Source of the DNA: Leptolyngbya sp. NIES-3755
GTDB taxonomy: Bacteria > Cyanobacteriota > Cyanobacteriia > Leptolyngbyales > Leptolyngbyaceae
Length of the DNA stretch: 64,000 nucleotides
Assembly: GCA_001548435.1 (NCBI GenBank)
Contig: AP017308.1
Location: 5,899,030 to 5,963,029 of the forward strand
Direction of reading: 5' to 3'
Shown: positions 4,079-59,264 of the stretch, in pieces
Layout: each line of letters opens with the position of its first letter
How positions within the stretch are numbered: the first letter of the stretch is position 1
The notes under the pieces: model-generated
Told to the model about the DNA's origin: nothing
The model's database searches: none
Seen by the model: only the letters and a program-made list of their open reading frames with translations
Program-made: the position numbers and the translations under genes

Positions 4079-6487
4079 TCAAACAATCTTGATCTGCCCC
4101 TGCTCATCTAAATCAACTTTTACAGAATCACCAGGCTTGACTCGACCAGAGAGAATTGCCTCAGCCAAACTATCTTCGAGAAGACAGGTAATGGCTCGTC
4201 GCAGCGGACGTGCGCCTTGCTCTGGATGATAGCCTGCTTCGACGAGGCGATCTTTAACACGATCGCTGACTTCCAGTTTGATGCCTTGTTCTAATAAACG
4301 GTCTGAAAATTCATTTAGTAAGAGATCCGCAATTTGTTTGATTTCGTCGTGTGTCAATTGTCGGAACACAATGATGTCATCTAACCGATTCAAAAATTCT
4401 GGACGAAAGTACTGCTTCAGTTCTTCATTGACTAGCGTTACAGTGCGTTGATAAGAGGCTTCTGGAACATTCGTCGATAGTTCAAAGCCGAGTCCACTCC
4501 CTCCTTTCTGAATCACCTTAGAGCCAACATTCGAGGTCATCACGAGCAAAGTATTCTTGAAATTCACGACTCGCCCTTTTGCATCGGTTAGGCGACCATC
4601 TTCTAGAATTTGCAACAGTAAATTAAACACATCAGGATGCGCTTTTTCGATTTCGTCAAATAGAACCACGGTGTAAGGCTTGCGCCGAACGGCTTCGGTT
4701 AACTGTCCGCCTTCGCTATAGCCGACATATCCCGGCGGAGAACCAATCAGCTTAGAAACGGTATGGCGCTCCATAAACTCAGACATATCGAGTCGAATCA
4801 TTGCTGATTCAGAACCAAAAAAGCAGGCGGCTAATGCTTTGACTAATTCGGTTTTGCCAACTCCTGTGGGACCTGAGAAAATAAACGAGGCGATCGGGCG
4901 GTTTGGATTGCTCAACCCCACTCTTGCTCGTCGAGTCGCACGTGCGATCGCATTTACCGCTTCCTCTTGTCCAATCAATCGTTGATGTAAAATCTCTTCC
5001 ATCTGCATCAACTGTTCTGACTCTGCTTCGGTGACTTTGTTTACCGGAACACCCGTCCAAGCTGAGACGATCTGAGCAATATCAACCTCATTCACTACAA
5101 TTGAGGAGCCAAACGCTGGAGTCTCAGTCTGAACCTCTGCTTGCAATGTCAGTTCGCTCGATCGCACTTCACCAGCGTGTCTAAAGTCCTGTTGTGCGAT
5201 CGCGCTAGCTTTAGTGAGCAAAATCTGTTTGAATCTTGCACTCAAGCTTTTATCGAGTGTGAACTGTTTGCCGTGAAGAATTCGAGCGCGAGATCCGGCT
5301 TCATCGATTAAATCGATCGCTTTATCGGGAAGCAGTCGATCAGAAATGTATCGATCGGCAAGTTTCGCCGCCGCTTCTAGCGCCAAATCCGAAATTTCTA
5401 ATCGATGGTGCTGCTCGTAGCGACTGCGTAACCCCTGTAGGATCAGAATTGTCTCTTCAACACTGGGTTCATCAATCATCACAGGCTGAAATCGCCGCTC
5501 AAGTGCCGCATCTTGCTCAAAATACTGACGATATTCATCGAGTGTCGTCGCTCCAATACAGCGCAGATCGCCTCGCGCCAGAGCAGGTTTCAGAATATTC
5601 GCAGCATCCAGCGACCCTTGAGTAGACCCTGACCCTAGCAGGGTGTGAACTTCATCGATGACTAAAATGATGTTTCCTGATGAGCGAACTTCCTTCATGA
5701 TCGTTTTGAGGCGTTCCTCAAATTCACCTCGATACTTTGTTCCCGCTAGCAATGTCCCGATGTTCAATGTTAGAACTTGCTGATCTTGGAGCGATTCGGG
5801 CACATCTCGATCGACAATGCGCTGCGCCAGTCCCTCTGCCAAAGCAGTCTTTCCGACACCCGGTTCGCCAATCAAAATCGGATTGTTCTTCGTGCGGCGA
5901 CCCAGAATCTGAATCATCCGTTCTACTTCCTGGGTCCGACCGATCACCGGATCAAGCTTTCCCAACGCCGCTAGTTCAGTCAAGTTCGCGCCGCACTCAT
6001 TCAAAATCGGCGTAGTCTTGCGACCGGAACTGTTACCTTTTAGAATTGGCTTCGCTTCAGAGATGGCTTGCAGCACATTAATCCGAACCTCAGTTCGCTC
6101 CACACCCAGCCGTTCTAAAATCTGAGTGGCTAGTCCTGCATCATCTTGCACGATCGCAAGCAACAAGTGTTCTGGCTCTACTCGACCATGCCCTAGCTGC
6201 TGTGCCTCCTGCATGGACTGTTCCAAAACATACCGACTCCGAGGAGTAAAGGGTATGTCAGTTTGAGACAATCCAGAGCCTCGACCAATGACTGCTTGCA
6301 CCTGCTCTTGTGCGTCTTCCAAGGTAATATCTAAATCGGCTAAAACTTGCGCGGCAATGCTCGGTCGAGTTGCAATTAAACCGAGTAGGATCTGCTCTGT
6401 CCCCACATAGTTATGCCCCAAGCGACGAGCTTCAATTTGCGCCGCATTCACAACTCGAATGGTTCTCTCCGTAAATCTATCAAACAC
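4079..6487 (-). CDS. clpC: ClpC-type AAA+ unfoldase
   Basis: This 802-aa class I Hsp100 protein has an N-terminal Clp repeat domain (1-145). AAA-1 carries Walker A GEPGVGKT (207-214), and AAA-2 carries Walker A GPTGVGKT (539-546). The LGF ClpP-docking loop is present (GGSGLGFEL), so it should feed substrates to ClpP. The middle region (about 405-455) is shorter and more degenerate than the UVR segment of standard cyanobacterial ClpC (about 820 aa), so this may be a divergent second copy. The start is GTG, with AAGGGA about 9 nt upstream. It lies 61 bp after the pentapeptide gene and 94 bp before the NACHT gene, all on the same strand, probably as a stress operon. Confidence 0.93.
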
Positions 6488-39913: not shown

Positions 39914-40252
39914 GATTTGACCTCTGATATGAATGTGACTACCGTGTTCACAATTAGTTTTGTGGTAATTTAAGTCTTGCAACTCAGCCGTTGCATTGTT
40001 TACCTGAATTCAATAGATGCCTAAGAACATTCAACAACTGCATTTTCAGCACAGAGGTCTACCCAAGGCATAAATATCCTTTCCCATCTGTGCTAGATGA
40101 GTGGCAAAAGTCTGTCTTTTGCAGTTGTGTATTGCTCTAGATGCGGAGAAGTTTGTGTGAGATTCTCTTGATTCTTTGTACCTAAAGTGTACTAAGTTCC
40201 AATGCTCAACGTCTTTCGGATTCTTACAACAATCTGTTAGATTCTTAAAGGG
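39914..40252. promoter_or_regulatory. 339-bp leader between the AraC gene and the cupins, with site C
   Basis: 40185-40226 is the reference copy of the conserved element (plus core AAGTGTACTAAGTTCCAATG ... CTTTCGGATTCTTA), lying just after the stop codon of the intact araC gene at 40253. The remaining ~270 bp to the cupin start is longer than at the other three sites and shows no gene. In gene sense the element ends in a TACACT -10-like box without a good -35, as expected for an activator-dependent promoter. Confidence 0.65.
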
Positions 40253-40609
40253 TTAGCGAACTTGCTTGGGTGTCAGTCCGGTGACTCGCTTAAACTGTTG
40301 CGTCAAATGACTTTGACTAGAGAACCCGACTTGTGTGGCAATGTCTGCGATCGACAAATCCGTTCTTGACAGCATCACTTTCGCCCGTTCCACCCGCTGT
40401 TGAATCACATACTGATGCGGCGAAATTCCCATTGCTTGCTTAAACAAACTGGCGAAGTAAGTCGGGCTGATATTGATGATGCTTGCCAGTTCAGCCAGGG
40501 ATAACTCTCGATTCAGGTGAGCGTGAATGTAATCGATCGCTTGCTGCAATTGAGTGTGCGTTAAGCCTCTGCTCTTAAATTCAATTGCTGGCATTGTAAT
40601 TGTTGTCAT
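40253..40609 (-). CDS. AraC-family regulator consisting only of the HTH domain
   Basis: This 118-aa protein is the tandem-HTH DNA-binding domain of AraC/XylS regulators: ALAELASIINISPTYFASLF-type first HTH (text: SLAELASIINISPTYFASLF) with KQAMGISPHQYVIQQRVERA, then second HTH DIATQVGFSSQSHLTQQFKR and TGLTPKQVR at the end. Full-length members carry a further 150-200 residue sensor domain, absent here, so it may be a MarA/SoxS-like constitutive form controlled by its amount. The Shine-Dalgarno is weak. Its 3' end has been copied with the downstream element to three other places. Confidence 0.9.
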   Translation of the reverse strand: MTTITMPAIEFKSRGLTHTQLQQAIDYIHAHLNRELSLAELASIINISPTYFASLFKQAMGISPHQYVIQQRVERAKVMLSRTDLSIADIATQVGFSSQSHLTQQFKRVTGLTPKQVR

Positions 40610-49408: not shown

Positions 49409-50128
49409 TCATCGCCTGCTTAAATAAAGGTTCCAAGTTTGTTTAGCAATTTCAGGATCGGCTGCAATGTGTTCGGCACAGTTGAGACGAAGATGACGAT
49501 CGCCAAACGGGGCATTTACTAGCGAACAATGATGGGGACGATCTGACCCTGGATACTGATTAGGCTGAAAGAATTGACAGGTCACACACATCTTTGCCAC
49601 CGAAATCTGTCCCTGTTGTTGAAGCTTGCGAATCATTTTGATCAGTCCCCGCAGAAAGATGACTTGTTCCTCCTCGGATAGCTCATCCACGGTGTTGAGC
49701 AGAAAGTCAGACCAGGACGCTGTTTGTGTTGCTATCTGCTGTCCTTGAGGGGTTAACGTAAGGGCGATCGCTCGTTTATCTTGAGGCGATCGCGTTTTTT
49801 GCACTAACCCTTTCTCGACTAGCGATGTCACCGCATCACTGGCAGTAGCAGCCGTGACTGCAAGATGTTTTGCCACCTCTGACAACCGCATTCCAGCGTT
49901 GCCTTTGTCAATCAGAAGCGCCAGAATTTGCCCTTGAGTCGGTGTTAAGCCTTGTTGTCCAGCATCCTGCCAGGACTGACTTTTCAGCGCCAGCCCAATT
50001 TTTTCTAGCCCAATCAAGATGTGCTGTTCGATCGCACTTGAAGCATCGAAGGGATTTTCGCTGCTGCCAGTCGGGTTTTCAGCGGGAAGGGCTAATTCTG
50101 TGTCGCGATCGCTTTGAGTACTATCCAT
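49409..50128 (-). CDS. MarR-family regulator with C-terminal four-cysteine motif
   Basis: This 239-aa protein has a disordered N-terminus (1-30) and a MarR winged helix (about 40-170; LTPTQGQILALLIDKGNAGM, RLSEVAKHLAVTAATASDAV, KTRSPQDKRAIALTLTPQGQ). A C-terminal cluster has Cys181-x2-Cys184, Cys201 and Cys217 (MCVTCQFF, HHCSLV, LRLNCAEH). Four cysteines at such spacing suggest a Zn or Fe-S site, making it a candidate redox or NO sensor; this is inference. It lies between kinase 2 and the globin operon, same strand. Confidence 0.88.
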   Translation of the reverse strand: MDSTQSDRDTELALPAENPTGSSENPFDASSAIEQHILIGLEKIGLALKSQSWQDAGQQGLTPTQGQILALLIDKGNAGMRLSEVAKHLAVTAATASDAVTSLVEKGLVQKTRSPQDKRAIALTLTPQGQQIATQTASWSDFLLNTVDELSEEEQVIFLRGLIKMIRKLQQQGQISVAKMCVTCQFFQPNQYPGSDRPHHCSLVNAPFGDRHLRLNCAEHIAADPEIAKQTWNLYLSRR

Positions 50129-50270: not shown

Positions 50271-50906
50271 TTACTTACATAGTTTCTGGGTCATTCCTTT
50301 AACGATGCGAAGGTGTTTCTCGATGCGCTCAATCACTGCTGTTTCAGGCGTATGCCCAAACCATCCATCTAGCAATTGCAGGTTTTGGTCAACCAGAAGA
50401 AAGGTTGGTGTCCCTGGTAGATGATTCAGTGTGAAGGTTGCTAATGTTTCGGCGTACCGCTGCAAATGAGCGTTCACCTTTTGCCGCAGTGCTGCTTGCT
50501 CTGATTTGGGCAGGCGATCGAAATCAGAAATCGCTTCAGTTAAAGTCTCAATGTTTTCAGGTGTTGCCAGTGCTGCACCTGTGATGAGTTGATCGACTGC
50601 AACGGGAAAGTCGATCGTTTGAGAGTAAAACTCTCCTAATGCTTGCCGAGTTGCTCCAACCAGTTTCATCTCTGTCAGAAGCAACGCTGTATTGGCAGCA
50701 GTATTGTACTCAAAATCCTCAAAAGCTGTTGAGAGTCCCAAGATATTCAAGCCTAACTGACGATACTTCCAATACAACTTGTTAACGAGAGGAAAGCCGT
50801 AGATGAAGCAACCGGGACAGTTGACTTGAAACACAAACAAAAGATTCAGCGCTTTGAGATCAAAAGAGCCTTGTAAGACGCGATCGACCTTGAGTTGAAT
50901 TTTCAT
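50271..50906 (-). CDS. TlpA-like thioredoxin-fold protein
   Basis: This 211-aa protein has a CPGC redox motif at Cys30/Cys33 (FVFQVNCPGCFIYGFPLVNK) and a thioredoxin-type cis-Pro region HLPGTPTFLLVDQNLQLLDG. A helical insert (about 75-160) is typical of TlpA/ResA relatives. No signal peptide, so likely cytosolic. It ends the globin operon and overlaps the Rof-like gene by 4 bp (ATGA), so it is translationally coupled. It could supply thiol electrons to partners of the globins; inferred. Confidence 0.85.
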   Translation of the reverse strand: MKIQLKVDRVLQGSFDLKALNLLFVFQVNCPGCFIYGFPLVNKLYWKYRQLGLNILGLSTAFEDFEYNTAANTALLLTEMKLVGATRQALGEFYSQTIDFPVAVDQLITGAALATPENIETLTEAISDFDRLPKSEQAALRQKVNAHLQRYAETLATFTLNHLPGTPTFLLVDQNLQLLDGWFGHTPETAVIERIEKHLRIVKGMTQKLCK

Positions 50907-51145
50907 GATGCTAATCGAGTAGGGTTGCCATTGACAGAAATCAAGCGATCGAGCCGAATTTCAGTTCCGTTTTTGAGTTTCAGAAAATCGGCATGGTTCG
51001 CGGCATACACATCCACAATCTGATCTTGAACTTCAACGACTTCGCCAGTTACAGTGCGGTAGGAGATCTGACAAATTTGCCGCAGCGTTGCCAAGGCTTC
51101 TAGCTGATCGTGAAACCCACAGTCCACCAAATAATAGTCATCCAT
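50903..51145 (-). CDS. Rof-like (Rho-binding antiterminator fold) small protein
   Basis: From ATG 51145 this is 80 aa: MDDYYLVDCGFHDQLEALAT, CQISYRTVTGEVVEVQDQIV and LKLKNGTEIRLDRLISVNGN. The order and the C-terminal ELR(L)DxI-type strand match the Rof/YaeO Sm-like fold. In E. coli Rof inhibits Rho. Most cyanobacteria lack Rho, so another partner or RNA is likely. The gene overlaps the 83-aa gene before it by 8 bp and the TlpA-like gene after it by 4 bp. Confidence 0.65.
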   Translation of the reverse strand: MDDYYLVDCGFHDQLEALATLRQICQISYRTVTGEVVEVQDQIVDVYAANHADFLKLKNGTEIRLDRLISVNGNPTRLAS

Positions 51146-51389
51146 GATCAATCTCCTTCCAATAGTTGTTCGCAGCCGCGATCGTAGCAAATTCAGTGGC
51201 AACCGTTTGTCCTACTGCAATCAACATCATGGCATCATTACCATAAATCTCTCGTAGCTGTTTGCGCTTCTCTTCATCGGGTTGAGTCAGTTTAATAATC
51301 AGTCGCGCCAGTTTCACGGCTAATTGCCGTCCTTCCTCAGGTGTTTCGGTGATCAACGAGTTGTTAGGAACCAGTGCGATCGTATCCAT
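51138..51389 (-). CDS. 83-aa hypothetical protein in the globin operon
   Basis: ATG 51389 has a strong AGGAGAA 6-7 nt upstream. The protein (MDTIALVPNNSLITETPEEG...) is mostly helical, with RQLAVKLARLIIKLTQPDEE and IYGNDAMMLIAVGQTVATEF. No known motif or membrane anchor is evident. The same frame is open upstream into the globin remnant, so a read-through fusion is possible, but the Shine-Dalgarno favours this start. Confidence 0.65.
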   Translation of the reverse strand: MDTIALVPNNSLITETPEEGRQLAVKLARLIIKLTQPDEEKRKQLREIYGNDAMMLIAVGQTVATEFATIAAANNYWKEIDHG

Positions 51390-51829
51390 TGTTTGTTCTC
51401 CTGTTAGTATCAAACTTTCTGGTGAGTAGTCTGTACCTTCCAGCATTAATTGAGCCACAACTTCATATGCCTCTATCCACGCTTGCTGCACGTCGGGAGT
51501 CCAGGCTGTACCCAGACTTACTCAAAAGCTTTAAGTAAGCTACTGCCCACCATTGGATAGTGTTGCGGCAATACACCGTACTGAAAGTGTCGAGTGCCCA
51601 AGCCTCTCAAGGCATCGCTTAAAACATCTGGTTTACGCAGGTTATTGACGGTAAAGACGAGAGATTGAAACAGTTGTTTGCGCTGCTTTTCCATATTGGT
51701 GTTGGCAAACAAAGGCTGAACTTCTGGATAGTCCGTAAACAGCACTGTGTAGAACTGTTTAGTCACCTCCGAACTGTTCGCTTTAATCTGAGCAAAGCTG
51801 CTCTTTAGCAATTCAACATTGAGAGCCAT
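51390..51829 (-). pseudogene. Single-domain globin (Vgb/flavohemoglobin-type), frameshifted
   Basis: The first 103 codons (ATG 51829) encode a globin: SFAQIKANSSEVTKQFYTVL, proximal His81 in LGTRHFQYGV, and HYPMVGSSLLKAFE. TAA then ends the frame. The missing C-terminal helix continues 1 nt out of phase as LGTAWTPDVQQAWIEAYEVV and AQLMLEG. A single-base deletion plus a CAA-to-TAA change would explain this. Such globins dioxygenate NO or bind O2. Without helix H the product may be unstable. A sequencing or assembly error should be excluded first. Confidence 0.8.
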
Positions 51830-51942
51830 TTAATGTTCTCCGTCACTAAGGTTTCACATTGGATGGGAAGCTTCACTTCCCTGAACTAATGCTGTAGGCT
51901 TGCTCCAAGCATGAGAAGATTTTTGTTCGTGGCATTCACCCT

Positions 51943-52062
51943 TTATCGAAAGTAGGTGTGATGCCAAGACCAACAAAGCTGTAAGAAAAACAATCCCATC
52001 GCCAGCACGATGCCACTAAATACTGACAGCGAGAACACTAGAAAAATACCAACAAATTCCAT
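51943..52062 (-). CDS. 39-aa single-helix membrane protein in the globin operon
   Basis: ATG 52062 with GGAGGG 4-5 nt upstream opens a 39-codon frame: MEFVGIFLVFSLSVFSGIVL then AMGLFFLQLCWSWHHTYFR. Residues 4-29 form one hydrophobic helix, ending with an aromatic, His-His containing tail. It lies 13 bp after the protoglobin stop and 113 bp before the globin start. It may anchor a globin or thioredoxin partner to the membrane; unknown family. Confidence 0.7.
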   Translation of the reverse strand: MEFVGIFLVFSLSVFSGIVLAMGLFFLQLCWSWHHTYFR

Positions 52063-52075
52063 GAGTCCCTCCAGA

Positions 52076-52657
52076 TTAGAAATAGGCATCTTTGGCATAG
52101 GGGGCGCACCAAAGCGTCACCTGTAGTGTGATGGATTTGAACCAGGCTTGATACATATTTTCAACGTCTTCCGCGCTGTGTCCCTTGTTTGACAGAAAGG
52201 GCTTGATGGTGGCTGTGATCGGGTAGATGAAGGCAATCAAGTACCGCATTCCAATATGAGGAGCGGCTTCAACGTGATCAGTCTGGTTTTTCTTAGCGTA
52301 AGTGTGGCGCAGACCGATTTCCTGCTGATAGTTCAGCCAATCCTGGTCATAAGGTCGATTACAGGTGTCTAGAATCCACTGAGCAAAGCGTTTGCGAACA
52401 GCACTCAAGTAGTCGAAGTTTGGCTGCCCTGCATTGCTGAAGTAATAAACTAGATGAGAGTTAGCAGCAACAAAGCCGTACCAAACATCTAGTACCGCAG
52501 CAATTTGGTCTTCTAACACTTCTCCTGCCATCCGCAGATATTTCTCATCTTCATCTGTAAACAAAACGGTCTGTTTGAGCAGTTCCAAGTCGTTGAGGGT
52601 CAACGGTGAATGAGCGGTTTGTTCAGTTCCAAAGGTATAACCTGCGATCGCGTTCAT
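52076..52657 (-). CDS. Protoglobin
   Basis: This 193-aa protein matches stand-alone protoglobins (about 195 aa): DEKYLRMAGEVLEDQIAAVL with DVWYGFVAANSHLVYYF, proximal His118 in EIGLRHTYAKKNQTD, and RYLIAFIYPITATIKPFLSN. Protoglobins bind O2, CO and NO and also occur as the sensor part of globin-coupled sensors; here there is no output domain. AAGGAGATTGATCA precedes the ATG. It is the first gene of the globin operon and sits directly after regulatory site D. Confidence 0.93.
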   Translation of the reverse strand: MNAIAGYTFGTEQTAHSPLTLNDLELLKQTVLFTDEDEKYLRMAGEVLEDQIAAVLDVWYGFVAANSHLVYYFSNAGQPNFDYLSAVRKRFAQWILDTCNRPYDQDWLNYQQEIGLRHTYAKKNQTDHVEAAPHIGMRYLIAFIYPITATIKPFLSNKGHSAEDVENMYQAWFKSITLQVTLWCAPYAKDAYF

Positions 52658-52810
52658 TGATCAATCTCCTTGTCATGAGTGAGTGGTGAATATGTTTGAC
52701 AGAATTGCAACAGCTAAATATCATCAGCCTAGAAAGTAAAAGAGAAGCCCATAAACAGTAATTGAAGCTAAATTGAGGCTGATTAAATACCTCTAACTTC
52801 ATCTACTTAA

Positions 52811-52852
52811 AGTCTATAGAGTTTGAATGCTTGATGTCTTTCAGATTCTTAT
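52811..52852 (-). promoter_or_regulatory. AraC-linked promoter element, site D (upstream of protoglobin operon)
   Basis: Plus-strand TTGAATGCTTGATGTCTTTC and AGATTCTTA match sites A-C. In gene sense it lies about 150 bp before the protoglobin ATG. The -10-like box corresponds to TAGACT here, against TACACT at sites A and C. The araC vestige at 52859-52930 adjoins it as at the other sites. Confidence 0.65.
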
Positions 52853-52858
52853 GAAGTT

Positions 52859-52930
52859 GCGAACTTGCTTCGATATCATTCCTGGGAATTGCTTAAACTG
52901 TTACCTCAAATGACTTCGACCGAGCGGCAC
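52859..52930 (-). pseudogene. 3' vestige of an araC regulator gene
   Basis: The minus strand reads SRSHLR, a stop, then QFKQFPGMISKQVR, aligning with QSHLTQQFKRVTGLTPKQVR at the end of the intact regulator at 40253. About 24 codons are preserved, with one in-frame stop and loss of the original stop. It abuts the 3' end of the MOSC gene, so the rest of this regulator copy was deleted. Confidence 0.8.
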
Positions 52931-52945
52931 GATTTAGCGTTGTTG

Positions 52946-53359
52946 TTAGTTCTCGCCCCAGAGTCGAGGGGCGGAATCAGGATTGATATTTTTAGCGGCA
53001 CGATCGAGCAAGGTGCGTTGCCAATTCGGTGCTAACAAGGGACAATTTGCCAGTTCAGCCGCTGCTTCTCGGTTGTTCAAATCATGCACCATGATTTGAT
53101 TCGCCCGTGCGATCGTCCACTGTGGAAAAGAGCGATCGCGCAATATAAGTTCCATCCCTGCCTCAACCGCGCCTTCTTTCAGTACACGGAAATACCATCC
53201 GGTCTGTCCAATCTCCTGAACTTGTAATGCTAGATCCCAGATTCGCCAGCGACGCGACAATTTCCAGCATGGCTGACGAGGCTGGGATATCTGAACTTGA
53301 GCTTCACCAATGTCATAGATATCTCCAATACACACCGATGCTTCAGTTTGATCGGTAAC
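52946..53359 (-). pseudogene. 3' part of MOSC-domain gene separated by an IS
   Basis: From the IS border the frame reads VTDQTEASVCIGDIYDIGEA, VQISQPRQPCWKL (conserved MOSC cysteine), then VQEIGQTGWYFRVLKEGAVE and ARANQIMVHDLNNREAAAEL to a stop at 52946. Joined to 54621-54915 after removing the IS and one TAAC, it gives a 234-aa YiiM-like MOSC protein. MOSC proteins bind molybdenum cofactor or sulfur and act in cofactor transfer or N-hydroxylated compound reduction. Confidence 0.88.
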
Positions 53360-54620
53360 CTCAGATCTTGCACCATTCCTGATAAGCGGGATTGGGTAGC
53401 GACTTGAGAACAATCTCAAACTGATAGCCAGCAGCAATCGGAACTGCTTCTTGGAGATATCGGAGAAACTGGAACCACAGCACAGAAGGAAACAAAATTG
53501 ACAAAGCTAAATCACTGGCAACCTTCCAATCGAGTTGAGGGAGCAACGAACTTTGGTAAATCCAATGAACGAGGAGATAGGCAATCAGAGCCAGAATTAA
53601 CCAACGATAGACCCCCTGCTTTGTCGATTGACCAAAGCGATGCAGACCAAAGCGATGCTTGATGGTTTTGAAGAAGGCTTCAATTGCCCACCGCTTGCGC
53701 CCCAAGCGCACGAGGTAGACTCCAGAGTAAGGATAGGTCGAAACCACAAAACGCAGTTCTCGTTTGCCATCAGCGAGTCTGAGCCAGAACCAGGAGACAG
53801 TCAGTGGGAAGTCAATGCCATCAAGCTTGATCTGCGCTCCTCGCCGATTGTGGCGATAAAGCTGTTTGAGATTACGCCCATCTTGTAATTTGCGGGTGCA
53901 GCGCATTCCGACCACCGCTCGCCAACGTCGATGCTTGACTGCTTTGAGAAAGTCAATCGTGCCAAACTCAGTGTCAGCGAGCACAATCACAGGCGCACCC
54001 GCTGCCAAGTCAGTGGGCACAGTTGCCAGTAACTTACAGGCTAACTGAGCCGGACTTGCCTGCCCCTTGCCTCGCCAGACTCGAAAACTCCACGGGATGC
54101 GCCAATTGCCAAGGTTGAGATACAACACGACCAAATGTAGTCCCCGCTTGCTATTCAGCATTCGTACCCAAGGGTCAGGCGCATCCGGGTTTTGGGTCGG
54201 GGTACTCAGATGCAAGAACTTGCCACATTTCTCCAAGGTTGTCAGATCGATGAGTACCCGCAGCGGCAGGTCTCTGCGCGACGGATGCTGCCTCAGTTGG
54301 TCGAAGATCGCTTTGCGGGTGGCGCGAATCACGCTGCGCGTAGACCACGAGTAATGGTTCAAAAATCGGCTGAGCGAACTGGCTGATTTCACCTGAGTGG
54401 ATTGAGGCAATGGATGTCCCAGCGCTTCGAGAAATAGCCCGAACAGCGCATTCAAACTGGCTTTTTGGTAGGCACTAGGCATCAAGCAGAGAAGACTATA
54501 AACTAGCGATTGGGCGTGTACAGCGATGGTTTCCATAACCGTCTCATCTTTTTTCTACGCCCTTTCTTTCAGATTTTGATGCCTTTGGCAACCCCTATTG
54601 AGACTGGTGCAAGATCTGAG
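53360..54620 (-). mobile_element. IS4/IS701-like insertion sequence (1261 bp) with TAAC target duplication
   Basis: Ends share CTCAGATCTTGCACCA in inverted orientation. TAAC flanks the element at 53356-53359 and 54621-54624. One transposase frame occupies it and its stop codon lies almost at the left end. Excision restores the MOSC reading frame exactly, which confirms the borders. Confidence 0.9.
53361..54536 (-). CDS. IS4-like DDE transposase
   Basis: This 391-aa protein has catalytic candidates in LRVLIDLTTLEKCGK, VIVLADTEFGTIDFL and GRKRWAIEAFFKTIKHRFGL (the E of the Y/R-(2)-R-(3)-E-(6)-K pattern). The N-terminus SLSRFLNHYSWSTRSVIRAT resembles IS4/IS701 relatives. It is intact, so the element may be active. 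The exact family (IS4 or IS701) needs comparison with curated ends. Confidence 0.9.
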   Translation of the reverse strand: METIAVHAQSLVYSLLCLMPSAYQKASLNALFGLFLEALGHPLPQSTQVKSASSLSRFLNHYSWSTRSVIRATRKAIFDQLRQHPSRRDLPLRVLIDLTTLEKCGKFLHLSTPTQNPDAPDPWVRMLNSKRGLHLVVLYLNLGNWRIPWSFRVWRGKGQASPAQLACKLLATVPTDLAAGAPVIVLADTEFGTIDFLKAVKHRRWRAVVGMRCTRKLQDGRNLKQLYRHNRRGAQIKLDGIDFPLTVSWFWLRLADGKRELRFVVSTYPYSGVYLVRLGRKRWAIEAFFKTIKHRFGLHRFGQSTKQGVYRWLILALIAYLLVHWIYQSSLLPQLDWKVASDLALSILFPSVLWFQFLRYLQEAVPIAAGYQFEIVLKSLPNPAYQEWCKI

Positions 54621-54915
54621 TAACTGTAAAATTTTCTCCAAAACATCCATAGGAAAGATTGGGCAAATTCAACCGTGCTCGCCAGGAGGGATAGTGTTCA
54701 GCCGCATATACCAGCACTGCTTTTTCAACACCGCCGTGATGTTTGAGATCGGCTTGACCATCTCCAGCTAGGTTGGTGCTTCCAAGCCAGATCGTCCCTT
54801 GAACTGGTTCTTTGAAGAATCCAGTAGACCAGGGACGATTCAATGGATCGGGTGCATTTGCAACACCAATCAATTTGGGCAGTCCAACCTGAATCGAAAG
54901 GATTTGGGCAACCAT
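54621..54915 (-). pseudogene. 5' part of MOSC-domain gene, truncated by the IS
   Basis: ATG 54915 (GGAGGG upstream) opens MVAQILSIQVGLPKLIGVAN, FFKEPVQGTIWLGSTNLAGD and GQADLKHHGGVEKAVLVYAA, then GCFGENFTVT, the N-terminal half of a YiiM-like MOSC protein. The frame then enters the IS and ends at 54595. The essential C-terminal half with the cysteine is on the other side of the IS, so the split product is presumably inactive. Confidence 0.88.
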
Positions 54916-55171: not shown

Positions 55172-55816
55172 ATGGACAGTTCGATCGACACCCTGCTCAA
55201 GTCTGAATTAACTAAACTAGGACAACAGTTGCGTGCTCTAAGAACTGAACGAGGTTGGACTTTAAGCGAACTGAGCGAACAAGCAGATGTGTCTGAGGCG
55301 TATTTGTCGCGCTTAGAATGTGGCGAAAGACAGCCTTCACTGGCAGTTCTGTTTAACTTGGCACGGGTCTATGGAGTGTCACTGCCCGACCTATTTGGCT
55401 CGACTTTAGAAAACTCAAAGCCAGCGATTCCAGAACAAGAAGCTTCTGCGGGCGTTGTCATTCGTGCAGGCGATCGTCTACTTCAAACAGGCAATGGATT
55501 GCGCTATGCTTCCCTCGCTGGCGGGAACCATCTCGCTGATTTGCATCCGCTCCGAGTGATCGTACCGGTCGATCGACCAGCAGAACATCACTACCAGCAT
55601 AGCGGTGAAGAGTGGCTCTATGTTCTCTCCGGTCAGTTAATCCTGACGCTAGTAGACGAGCAGTTTTTACTCAATCCGGGCGATGCGGCTCATTTTGATG
55701 CGTTCCTCCCACACGATATCTCTGCAACCGGAGAGCAAGACGCTGAGATTCTTCTAGTTGCCTGTACACCGACACGCTCTCTATTGAAAAGTTACCTCTC
55801 CGAGAAACAATCATGA
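55172..55816 (+). CDS. XRE-cupin transcriptional regulator
   Basis: This 214-aa protein has an XRE HTH (about 15-70; LGQQLRALRTERGWTLSELS, EQADVSEAYLSRLECGERQP) and a C-terminal cupin (about 110-205; HYQHSGEEWLYVLSGQLILT, NPGDAAHFDAFLPHDIS). This is the PuuR/SutR-like design, in which the cupin senses a small molecule. AGAGAAG precedes the ATG. It overlaps the amidotransferase gene by 4 bp (ATGA), so the two are coupled. Confidence 0.93.
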   Translation: MDSSIDTLLKSELTKLGQQLRALRTERGWTLSELSEQADVSEAYLSRLECGERQPSLAVLFNLARVYGVSLPDLFGSTLENSKPAIPEQEASAGVVIRAGDRLLQTGNGLRYASLAGGNHLADLHPLRVIVPVDRPAEHHYQHSGEEWLYVLSGQLILTLVDEQFLLNPGDAAHFDAFLPHDISATGEQDAEILLVACTPTRSLLKSYLSEKQS

Positions 55817-56529
55817 GAATCCACTACTTACAGCACGTTCCCTTTGAAAAATTGGGCAGCCTTTCGACTTGGATGACTGATCAAAACTATTCGGTATCTT
55901 CTACCAGGCTTTATGCCGACGCTCCCTTACCAACTGTGAATGATTTTGATTGGTTGATCATCCTGGGCGGACCGATGAATATCTACGAGGAGAACCAGTA
56001 CCCCTGGCTAATCGCAGAAAAACAGTTGATTAAGCAGGCGATCGAGAAAGATAAATTAGTGCTTGGCATTTGTCTGGGAGCACAACTGATTGCGGATGCT
56101 CTAGGTGCAAGAGTGTATTCGGGTGAACACAAAGAAATTGGATGGTTTCCGATCAAAACAACAGAAGCCGTTCAGCAATCCGAAGCACTTGAATTCTTAC
56201 CTTCTGAACTGACTGTTTTTCATTGGCATGGGGATACATTTGAGTTGCCAGAGAAAGCCATTCGTCTCGCCTACAGTGAAAGCTGTGCGAATCAAGCATT
56301 TCTCTACAGCGACAAGGTGCTTGGCTTGCAATTTCACTTGGAAGTTGATCAGCAAGGTGTACGGCAAATGATTGAGAATGGTGCATCAGAATTAGTTGCA
56401 GGAAAGTACGTTCAGAGTTCCGAGGAGATGCTTTTCGCAGATAGGAATTTTGCAACGATCAATGAAGTCATGTACCACTTCCTTGAAATGCTCTCATGCC
56501 ACGATCGCAAAACTGTTCAGAATCGTTAG
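55813..56529 (+). CDS. Class I glutamine amidotransferase
   Basis: This 238-aa protein has the GATase-1 triad: nucleophile Cys87 in VLGICLGAQLIADALG, and His175/Glu177 in LQFHLEVDQQG. LIILGGPMNIYEENQYPWL and VFHWHGDTFELP are typical of the GMP-synthase-like stand-alone subgroup, often annotated in glutamate or polyamine catabolism. Coupling to a PuuR-like XRE-cupin regulator suggests a role in gamma-glutamyl compound breakdown, by analogy only. Confidence 0.92.
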   Translation: MRIHYLQHVPFEKLGSLSTWMTDQNYSVSSTRLYADAPLPTVNDFDWLIILGGPMNIYEENQYPWLIAEKQLIKQAIEKDKLVLGICLGAQLIADALGARVYSGEHKEIGWFPIKTTEAVQQSEALEFLPSELTVFHWHGDTFELPEKAIRLAYSESCANQAFLYSDKVLGLQFHLEVDQQGVRQMIENGASELVAGKYVQSSEEMLFADRNFATINEVMYHFLEMLSCHDRKTVQNR

Positions 56530-57837: not shown

Positions 57838-58290
57838 ATGAAAAAGCTCGATTCTCTCCGCAACTCGACTTGGCGATTGTTTCTCACGGTTCATGCCAAA
57901 CTGCTCGATCGCATTGAGGCAAAATTTGCCGAGGCAGAGTTACCGCCGCTGGAGTGGTATGACGTGCTGTTGACGCTCAAAGAAGCACCGGATCAGCAGC
58001 TACGGCTGAGTGACCTCGCAGATAAAGTGCTGTTAAGCCGCAGTAATCTAACGCGCTTAACCGATCGACTCGAAGCAGCGGGATTGTTGCAGCGGAAACG
58101 ATGTCCGGACGATCGACGCGGAGCGTATGCCGTGCTGACTGACGCGGGAGTTGCCATGCAAGAGCGAATGTGGAAGGTTTATGCGGCAAGCATTGTCGAG
58201 TATTTCGGTCGCCATCTCAGCACTGAGGAAGCTCAACTGATGCAGCAAACATTCACCCGAATGATAGTCGCCTTGGATGAGGAGTCATGA
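57838..58290 (+). CDS. MarR-family transcriptional regulator
   Basis: This 150-aa protein has the MarR winged-helix core: LPPLEWYDVLLTLKEAPDQQ, LRLSDLADKVLLSRSNLTRL, TDRLEAAGLLQRKRCPDDRR and GAYAVLTDAGVAMQERMW. Length is typical. The N-terminal helices form the dimer interface. It contains one cysteine (KRCPDDRR) in the wing, which could allow oxidation sensing; inferred. The operator-like palindromes upstream suggest autoregulation and control of the divergent DUF2808 gene. Confidence 0.93.
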   Translation: MKKLDSLRNSTWRLFLTVHAKLLDRIEAKFAEAELPPLEWYDVLLTLKEAPDQQLRLSDLADKVLLSRSNLTRLTDRLEAAGLLQRKRCPDDRRGAYAVLTDAGVAMQERMWKVYAASIVEYFGRHLSTEEAQLMQQTFTRMIVALDEES

Positions 58291-58541: not shown

Positions 58542-59264
58542 TTGTCGGATGCAACCGTGAAGAGAATTTTGGGAACACTCAAAGCGTTTTATGGCTGGCT
58601 GTGGCGATCTGGCTATGTCGATCTCGACCCAACTCTCGAAGTACAACTGCCGAAGTTGGCAGAGCCAGGAGCGGATAACTTGACGGATGAGCAAGTAGAG
58701 AAGATTTTGGGAGCGGTGGCAGAGATGAAGCTGTGCGATCGCAATCTGGCGCTGTTTGCGGTATTGCAGCACGGCATTCGAGCAGAAGCAGCGACATTGT
58801 TGAATGTAGGCGATTTTGATGGAAAGCGCTTGTGGGTACGTCAGGATAAGGCAGATAGTAAAGGGGTTGTGCCGCTCGATGAGGAAGGGATACGAAAGAT
58901 TCAGGCGTATTTAGGGTGGCGAGTCAATCAAGGAGAGGTGTTGCAGCCAGAAAGCCCGTTATTTGTGTCGGCTTTGCGGCGCAATCGAGGGGCGCGGATT
59001 GGATATGACACGATCGATAAGTTGGTCTGCCAACTGCGTGAACAGACTGGCATCGAGTTTCATGCCCACCAGCTTCGGCATACCTATGCAACGAATTTGG
59101 TGTTAGACGGCATGAATCCGTATCATGTGATGACGCTGACGCGGCACGAGTCGGTGCAGAGTTTTCGACGGTACACGAAGGCGGCAGACCAGCAAGCAGC
59201 GGAGGCAGCGTTTTACGAAACAAAACGGCGGAAGCGCAAGCCAGAACCGTTCTCAGAACAATAG
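58542..59264 (+). pseudogene. Tyrosine recombinase, 5'-truncated
   Basis: The 240-codon frame opens with TTG without a Shine-Dalgarno, directly after the decayed gene. It starts inside the core-binding domain (ATVKRILGTLKAFYGWLWRS). The catalytic domain is complete: Arg in LQHGIRAEAATLLNV, His-x-x-Arg in HAHQLRHTYATNL, His in LTRHESVQSFRRY, and a Tyr in RRYTKAAD. Full-length relatives have an extra 60-100 N-terminal residues. It is probably not functional, or is expressed only as a catalytic fragment. The related tail at 60193-60351 suggests two integrases were present. Confidence 0.75.

Follow-up and report, generated by a model that had tools for sequence, protein, structure and literature searches.

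NsrR regulons place haem proteins that react with nitric oxide (NO) under a Cys-bearing regulator, and OhrR and MexR are Cys-based sensors of the MarR family; for protoglobin, the hexameric tyrosine-coordinated haem protein (HTHP) and DUF2024, we know of no settled physiological role. The biochemistry on record includes nitrite reduction and peroxynitrite isomerisation by the protoglobin of Methanosarcina acetivorans (excerpt of PMC4020757), the entry of a Nitrosococcus protoglobin in a transcript table as an O2, CO and NO binder (excerpt of PMC3772326), and peroxidatic activity with Tyr-bound haem for HTHP (excerpt of PMC4813847). Here we describe an operon in which the genes for protoglobin and HTHP lie together with thiol genes and, just downstream, the gene for a MarR-type regulator whose C-terminal tail carries four Cys (Cys4-MarR hereafter). 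It is found in a 64,000-nucleotide stretch of contig AP017308.1 of Leptolyngbya sp. NIES-3755 (the window; coordinates below are its positions), whose source genome comprises 6.76 Mb in four contigs. We hold, with moderate confidence, that this operon represents, in its cyanobacterial version, a Cys4-MarR-controlled island for defence against reactive nitrogen or oxygen species, an island that is widespread and whose genes are shuffled.

On the minus strand, from 52657 to 50271, the open reading frames (ORFs) are closely packed, as the original prediction of a globin operon had proposed and as the ORF listing and the Pfam matches bear out. With the regulator further down they make seven genes or gene parts, in the order protoglobin, one-helix peptide, flavohaemoglobin-type globin, HTHP, Rof-like protein, CPGC redoxin and then Cys4-MarR (L-numbers, here and below, label loci of relatives, and G-numbers label genomes):

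52076–52657, minus strand: protoglobin, 193 amino acids (aa), first gene of the operon; PF11563, 126.8 bits (cut-off 25)
51943–52098, minus strand: one-helix peptide, 51 aa, sharing 23 nt with the end of the protoglobin gene
51518–51829, minus strand: flavohaemoglobin-type globin, 5' part; PF00042, 39.5 bits (cut-off 22)
51390–51518, minus strand: globin 3' remnant in a shifted frame, in frame into HTHP; from the alignment to L011
51138–51389, minus strand: HTHP, 83 aa; PF11534, 115.3 bits (cut-off 25), 1.7e-33
50903–51145, minus strand: Rof-like small protein, 80 aa; from the alignment of relatives
50271–50906, minus strand: CPGC redoxin (TlpA/ResA-like), 211 aa, overlapping the Rof-like stop
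49409–50128, minus strand: MarR regulator with a C-terminal four-Cys tail (C181, C184, C201, C217); PF12802/PF01047

Two haem globin types had been predicted here: the protoglobin is intact, and the second globin is frameshifted and incomplete, while a third haem protein, HTHP, had been overlooked. The window protoglobin matches that of M. acetivorans (2veb) at 2e-81 and that of Aeropyrum pernix at 6e-65 in phmmer, and the His of its GLRH motif, which we take to be the proximal haem His, aligns with the His of 2veb. Like both of these proteins it is of a single domain and similar length, without an attached signalling domain; what sets it apart is the place of its gene in a MarR-linked operon, next to genes for other haem proteins and for thiol proteins. 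The HTHP start, an ATG at 51389 with its ribosome-binding site, is kept in L010 and L011, and the protein aligns with PDB 2oyy (E 1.8e-20), the Tyr haem ligand included. Non-synonymous divergence (dN) lies well below synonymous divergence (dS) for both protoglobin and HTHP when compared with L010 or L011.

The Cys-rich MarR gene noted earlier beside the operon is indeed present, on the same strand and 142 bp downstream of the redoxin gene. Its product has a clear winged helix (PF12802, 49.8 bits against a cut-off of 27), and the four Cys of its tail, in the pattern CxxC...C...C, are invariant in 18/18 and 32/32 aligned homologues. In the structure model (predicted confidence, pLDDT, 84; 84–90 over the tail blocks) the tail forms three short strands outside the MarR fold; the closest known structures are MepR, YetL and YusO, and the tail is covered by none of the best 60 of 125 PDB matches. 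The four Cys may make a Zn or Fe-S site, and a new sensor subfamily within MarR is plausible. With OhrR and MexR the protein shares the MarR winged helix and thiol-protein neighbours, but it carries its Cys outside the MarR fold, in the C-terminal tail, and among the 25 of 28 NCBIfam families listed, OhrR and other named MarR equivalogs gave at best 44.3 bits against a cut-off of 175; for AdcR, too, it falls far below the cut-off. The likeness to NsrR regulons lies in NO-reactive haem proteins joined to a Cys-bearing regulator, and Hymenobacter has hmpA, Rrf2 and catalase beside the set; the difference is that the window regulator is MarR-type, the Rrf2 model finding no match in the window segment, which leaves the locus outside the NsrR regulons. 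Nor do we know of the palindrome TTAGGA-N-TCCTAA, discussed below, for NsrR. Our literature searches found neither the operator strings nor "MarR family" together with "four conserved cysteine", and, among the papers listed, no such operon setting was described for protoglobin and MarR, as judged by titles and the start of abstracts. The available part of PMC11837568 names one Cys in a GbsR-type MarR, a family different from Cys4-MarR, and that of PMC11218638 has protoglobin in its reference list only.

The linkage of the two genes is recurrent. Protoglobin and Cys4-MarR lie no more than 2.6 kb apart in 41 of 80 protoglobin loci, 38 times on one strand, and this depends on closeness to the window protein: 37 of the first 47 loci (the closest relatives) have the pair, as do 4 of the last 33. 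Thirty-seven of the 45 genomes searched for those 47 loci hold Cys4-MarR, 34 of them as a single copy. Because likeness to the window protoglobin had decided which loci were used, and loci of this kind had supplied the MarRs for our model, two genome samples were taken, in which MarR counts are lower bounds, first-look candidates having been scored per genome at most 12, 20 and 9 (cyanobacterial count below included). Among 247 Bacteroidota genomes, at least 19 had the MarR and 10 a protoglobin; both were present in at least 5 and adjacent in 5/5, or, without the centre genome, present in at least 4/246 and adjacent in 4/4 (hypergeometric p 0.002, relatedness ignored). Among 151 Chloroflexota genomes, of which one (G439) was already among the 80 loci, the MarR was found in at least 6, protoglobin in 12 and both in at least 5, 4 times adjacent and once about 7 kb apart; without the centre genome both occurred in at least 4/150 and were adjacent in 3/4 (hypergeometric p 8e-5, relatedness ignored). 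On a planctomycete contig (L048) a protoglobin-MarR pair appears at about 1097 and again at 6001, 4.9 kb apart and with equal match values, by duplication or as an assembly artefact.

Protoglobin is one of several partners of this regulator. In 18 other Bacteroidota MarR loci, it adjoins the MarR in 4, a 77-aa thioredoxin with DUF2024 does so in 9, a P460-like protein in 3, and none of these in 2. Other Cys4-MarR neighbours are truncated globin (a match that passes the Pfam cut-off in L127 and narrowly misses it in L126), cytochrome P460 (Pfam-confirmed in L136, the one tested), glutaredoxin, thiol peroxidase, small thioredoxin and redoxin. Of 38 plasmid MarR records seven regions were opened, and six of them have DUF2024 or genes of the thiol/peroxide class (thioredoxin, redoxin, catalase or "peroxidase-related"). 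DUF2024 and a truncated-globin-like part form one ORF in L126 (5868–6500) and neighbouring ORFs in L127 (5394–6028).

The larger set also recurs, whole or in part, in the order protoglobin - peptide - (globin) - HTHP - (Dps) - Rof-like - redoxin - MarR: in L010 without globin and with HTHP and Rof-like sharing one ORF, in L011 with globin, HTHP, Dps and then an alternative oxidase at the contig end, and in L012 with HTHP, Dps, Rof-like and redoxin. On a Nostoc plasmid (C057) MOSC, a Rof fragment, a small thioredoxin and a thiol peroxidase (Tpx) divergent from MarR are followed by an AurF-type oxygenase, a class-I glutamine amidotransferase (GATase), globin, Rof-like and redoxin genes, this stretch being without protoglobin and without HTHP. 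The Bacteroidota locus L042 has protoglobin, DUF2024, redoxin and MarR, Rof-like, Rrf2, cbb3-type subunits and HTHP, and L045 and L047, of the same phylum, have two protoglobins, DUF2024, redoxin, MarR and Rof-like. In Ruegeria (Silicibacter) pomeroyi, the gene of the founding HTHP, identical to 2oyy and of the same family as that of the window, has MOSC genes next to it, together with the genes of a four-Cys MarR and of the redoxin solved as PDB 3eyt; it differs in having no protoglobin in the surrounding 12 kb. The set is thus linked in cyanobacteria, in Bacteroidota and partly in Ruegeria, so that the case envisaged with the original prediction, of genes linked in no other genome, falls away. 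A thiol peroxidase lies between protoglobin and MarR in L013 (6510–7148), and a shortened copy between redoxin and MarR in L010 (7892–8095).

Conservation of the set across cyanobacteria, also proposed earlier, is not borne out. Protoglobin is found in 2 of 386 sampled cyanobacterial genomes, the window's own included, and the other copy is broken (L099, G334); within the window's taxonomic family the count is 2/42, again with its own. HTHP occurs in 4/386, and Cys4-MarR, at E ≤ 1e-30, in at least 6 of 329 cyanobacterial genomes, of which two belong to the class of the window. In a protoglobin tree made without L012 and L099, whose protoglobin frames are broken, the cyanobacterial rows form one supported group of seven, and those nearest to the window are sequences from Leptolyngbyaceae metagenome-assembled genomes (MAGs).

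HTHP keeps company with respiratory genes as well: it adjoins an alternative oxidase in Nostoc UHCC 0926 and lies near one in L011 and L097, and it is found with cbb3-type oxidase in Thioclava, Roseibium and L042, Thioclava and L042 having Rrf2 too and the Thioclava region also a truncated globin and haemerythrin. No oxidase, Rrf2, truncated globin or haemerythrin was seen in four further HTHP plasmid regions. We read the HTHP/oxidase neighbourhoods as respiration together with scavenging under NO, peroxide or related poisons. An HTHP homologue on an E. coli plasmid (CP057135.1, 22385–22588) is annotated "peroxidase".

Common to the MarR-linked loci is the palindrome TTAGGA-N-TCCTAA, which in L010, L011 and L013 stands as TTAGGA-G-TCCTAA about 100–120 bp upstream of protoglobin. 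Exact cores TAGGANTCCTA number 36 (33 distinct) over 1.5 Mb of loci, against at most 4 for any of the other 29 half-site-permuted palindromes and 0–1 in first-order random sequence. With up to one mismatch, TTAGGANTCCTAA is present in 30/42 MarR-linked protoglobin loci, 3/38 others and 16/18 separately sampled Bacteroidota MarR loci, and six permuted controls reach 0–3 loci; at two mismatches the figures are 41/42, 7/38 and 18/18, with controls at 3–22. The 42 comprise the 41 loci within 2.6 kb plus L024; the 38 include L011, which meets a contig end, and L073, whose MarR is 3.6 kb off, and the three of them with a site are L011, L025 and L083. Of 29 exact sites in the sets scanned, 22 precede a gene for protoglobin, MarR, DUF2024 or small thioredoxin by no more than 260 bp, or fall up to 60 bp within its called start; others lie ahead of the P460 gene in L136 and ahead of a secreted protein family in L125, L128 and L134. 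This predicted secreted family, with the motif GQLDGAPVLGYVFPT, adjoins Cys4-MarR in L125, L128, L134 and L158 (Bacteroidota and a cyanobacterium), and the two members tested had no Pfam match. The loci that carry a site with at most one mismatch belong to Cyanobacteriota, Chloroflexota, Abditibacteriota, Bacteroidota, Ignavibacteriota, Acidobacteriota and Planctomycetota; sphingomonad plasmids (Pseudomonadota) carry such sites too. In Chloroflexota loci with exact sites the site stands 10–23 bp before MarR; from this position, the linkage and the palindromy we infer that Cys4-MarR binds TTAGGA-N-TCCTAA.

The remaining members of the operon are small or less easily named. The redoxin confirms the TlpA-like thiol protein of the original prediction: its CxxC (CPGC) lies within FQVNCPGCF, invariant in 6 aligned redoxins of two phyla, the window's included, and the family profile has 3eyt as its best PDB match (E 4e-28). 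The window redoxin by itself has no Pfam redoxin match, and its structure model was rejected as evidence, being poor (pLDDT 65) and without a PDB fold match at E ≤ 0.001. A 411-aa redoxin::MarR ORF in L042 was not used as a fusion, because L042 comes from a MAG and relatives have overlapping separate genes. For the Rof-like protein the 80-aa ORF is present and the name is a weak call: Pfam ROF (PF07073) matched one of six members (E=0.046), and at E ≤ 1 there were two PDB matches in all, both to Rof and both weak (E about 0.8). Its identity to relatives is 85–87% in L010 and L012, 68% in L144 and 34% in L091; the members of L042, L045 and L047, 20–22% identical, were added to the family model by our choice. 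The 51-aa peptide is found in the window and three other cyanobacterial loci (L010, L011 and L012, 80–86% identity), with dN/dS of about 0.2–0.4 in four pairs; the membrane location once proposed for the system rests on this peptide, whose helix was assigned by eye.

The window copy itself is damaged in places, and its surroundings bear traces of other genes:

40253–40609, minus strand: AraC-type ORF, 118 aa; tblastn with AraC proteins 7e-12 to 5e-51
52692–52704, no strand: junction of 13 bp where L011 has 301 bp, its operator (1485–1497) included; blastn blocks on both sides
52804–52920, minus strand: remnant of an AraC gene 3' end and flank, upstream of protoglobin; match to 40179–40317
52946–53437, minus strand: MOSC gene, 3' part (with YiiM_3-alpha); PF03473, PF03475
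53361–54536, minus strand: transposase-like ORF that splits the MOSC gene; by position and sequence
54595–54915, minus strand: MOSC gene, 5' part; PF03473, 45 bits
54944–54956, no strand: one-mismatch operator TTAGGGCTCCTAA upstream of the MOSC gene, 29 bp before its start
55813–56529, plus strand: class-I GATase; PF00117

The globin has a one-base frameshift after residue 103 relative to L011, the DNA being 93% identical over 429 columns. Having no stop of its own, the remnant continues in frame into HTHP, so that ORF 51138–51491 is a globin remnant fused with HTHP; over its 33 codons aligned with L011 there are 3 synonymous and 2 non-synonymous changes. The window globin scores 65.9 bits on NF009805, far under the cut-off of 432, and complete globin ORFs exist in L011 (145 aa) and Nostoc C057. 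The MOSC gene is split by ORF 53361–54536, presumably a transposase. Relative to L011, about 290 bp are missing before the window protoglobin, and with them its own operator copy, L011's operator falling in that stretch; the site ahead of MOSC remains, as in L011, where a one-mismatch site at 269 precedes the MOSC start at 311. Frameshift, split and missing stretch may be real or assembly faults. Matches to promoter and terminator consensus were not above shuffles (2 against 5.0, and 2 against 3.5). Further out, a helix-turn-helix and cupin regulator overlaps the GATase gene (55172–56529), and a second MarR-like ORF with a weak match to the Cys4-MarR model (57838–58290) is followed by an integrase-like ORF (58542–59264). 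The GATase is recurrent, adjoining protoglobin in L036, L060 and L090 and lying near Cys4-MarR in L144 and L124.

A number of observations weigh against a single Cys4-MarR-controlled island: (i) 39 of the 80 protoglobin loci have no Cys4-MarR within 2.6 kb (some are contig ends), and 14 of the 18 sampled Bacteroidota MarR loci have no adjoining protoglobin. (ii) Of 25 HTHP plasmid records ten regions were opened, and just two (Hymenobacter, Ruegeria) have Cys4-MarR; the HTHP regions of Corynebacterium marinum, Microbulbifer, Streptomyces and Hoeflea are without any island partner, and a Paraburkholderia MarR region is without a haem or thiol neighbour. (iii) Other regulators, AraC and HxlR-like, adjoin some protoglobin genes. 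(iv) At two mismatches the sites in MarR-less loci (7/38) are within the range of their controls (4–22), and the Ruegeria HTHP region, in a further difference from the window, has no TTAGGANTCCTAA within two mismatches. (v) The window genome has 0 exact sites and 7 with one mismatch, against 21 for the reversed pattern, which rules out genome-wide enrichment of the operator there; of the six one-mismatch sites outside the island five are inside long ORFs, and the sixth, on the second contig, lies 67–74 bp before an ORF and also inside an opposite-strand 122-aa ORF.

Two alternatives concern the window copy itself. It could be a decaying remnant, functionless at present, as a frameshifted globin, a MOSC gene in two parts and the lost operator stretch would suggest; we think this improbable, given that the ORFs of protoglobin, HTHP, redoxin and MarR are intact and that protoglobin and HTHP both have a dN much lower than their dS. 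About equally improbable, in our judgement, is that the MarR site was lost and that AraC took over, controlling the operon through the stretch which the original prediction had called an AraC-linked site. As sequence, that claim was correct: the 117 bp at 52804–52920, upstream of protoglobin, match the last AraC codons and the 3' flank (79% over 85 bp and 77% over 48 bp; E 1e-17 and 1e-8) in a gapped alignment of regions that have no exact 16-nt word in common. L090 has a full AraC gene upstream of protoglobin, L012 a fragment 85% identical about 0.7 kb upstream and L011 a weak remnant (32% over 100 aa), which makes AraC a recurrent protoglobin neighbour in cyanobacteria; in L011 and L012, moreover, the AraC remnant is directly followed by the word CAGATTCTTA, of which L010 has two upstream copies. 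As far as sequence goes, the AraC-shared stretch is real, at least as a remnant, but because it contains AraC coding sequence it must at least partly be a gene remnant, and the short motif TTTCAGATTCTTATG does not clearly exceed chance, with 7 window matches at three mismatches against a shuffle mean of 3.3, and 8/100 shuffles reaching 7. Our estimate for the Cys4-MarR-controlled island is unmoved by all this, since the MarR evidence is independent of AraC. In L012, L036, L060 and L092 a gene judged HxlR-like by eye takes the place of Cys4-MarR; it is immediately upstream of protoglobin and on the opposite strand.

What the island as a whole responds to can also be read in other ways. It might answer electrophiles, quinones or hypochlorous acid sensed by the MarR thiols, with the haem proteins secondary, and nitroreductase, MOSC, universal stress protein and GMC oxidoreductase genes in some loci, together with MepR, YetL and YusO as the best structural matches of the MarR, fit this picture; against it, haem proteins of the globin, P460 and HTHP types are recurrent partners, even if they do not separate peroxide from electrophile, and we think the reading unlikely. 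A metal-homeostasis or metal-stress regulator with haem and thiol genes as targets would suit four invariant Cys fit for a Zn or Fe-S site in a predicted tail of few short strands, Dps near HTHP in L011, L012 and L097, and the location of HTHP close to merA in C. marinum and close to a heavy-metal ATPase gene in Hoeflea; yet merA and the ATPase adjoin HTHP without Cys4-MarR, and with AdcR and the other NCBIfam equivalogs listed far below cut-off we regard this as quite unlikely. Least probable is the hitch-hiking of unrelated stress genes on plasmids or islands: order and partners do vary and several copies are plasmid-borne, but a palindrome common across phyla, a MarR mostly in single copy and operon spacing all speak against it.

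For the defence island that we prefer, the sequences and their company lead us to the following scheme of repression, signal, metal, effector chemistry and NO specificity. A MarR-type repressor with a Cys4 tail would sit on TTAGGA-N-TCCTAA at island promoters; it would come off when the Cys4 site, or a metal that this site binds, is oxidised or nitrosylated; its release would switch on protoglobin, globin and HTHP, which may then remove NO, peroxynitrite or peroxide, while reducing power or thiol repair may come from a partner redoxin, thiol peroxidase, small thioredoxin or glutaredoxin. Of the NO/O2-handling system proposed earlier, the fit of the protein families to NO, O2 or peroxide handling is retained; NO is the favoured signal, and specificity for it would be an added feature of the scheme. 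More tentatively, and on balance short of what we would call probable, the Cys4-MarR subfamily, with its metal or Fe-S site, may sense gases or redox state, bind TTAGGANTCCTAA in at least 8 phyla and define a stress regulon of protoglobin, HTHP, DUF2024 and P460.

If such a regulon exists, the four-Cys tail of its regulator would predict a sensor type within MarR that we did not find in the literature searched, and one regulator with a 13-bp putative operator across phyla would tie protoglobin, HTHP and DUF2024 to one response. The linkage to the Cys4-MarR island is a clue to the purpose of protoglobin, and the regulon, if true, would give protoglobin and HTHP a physiological setting.

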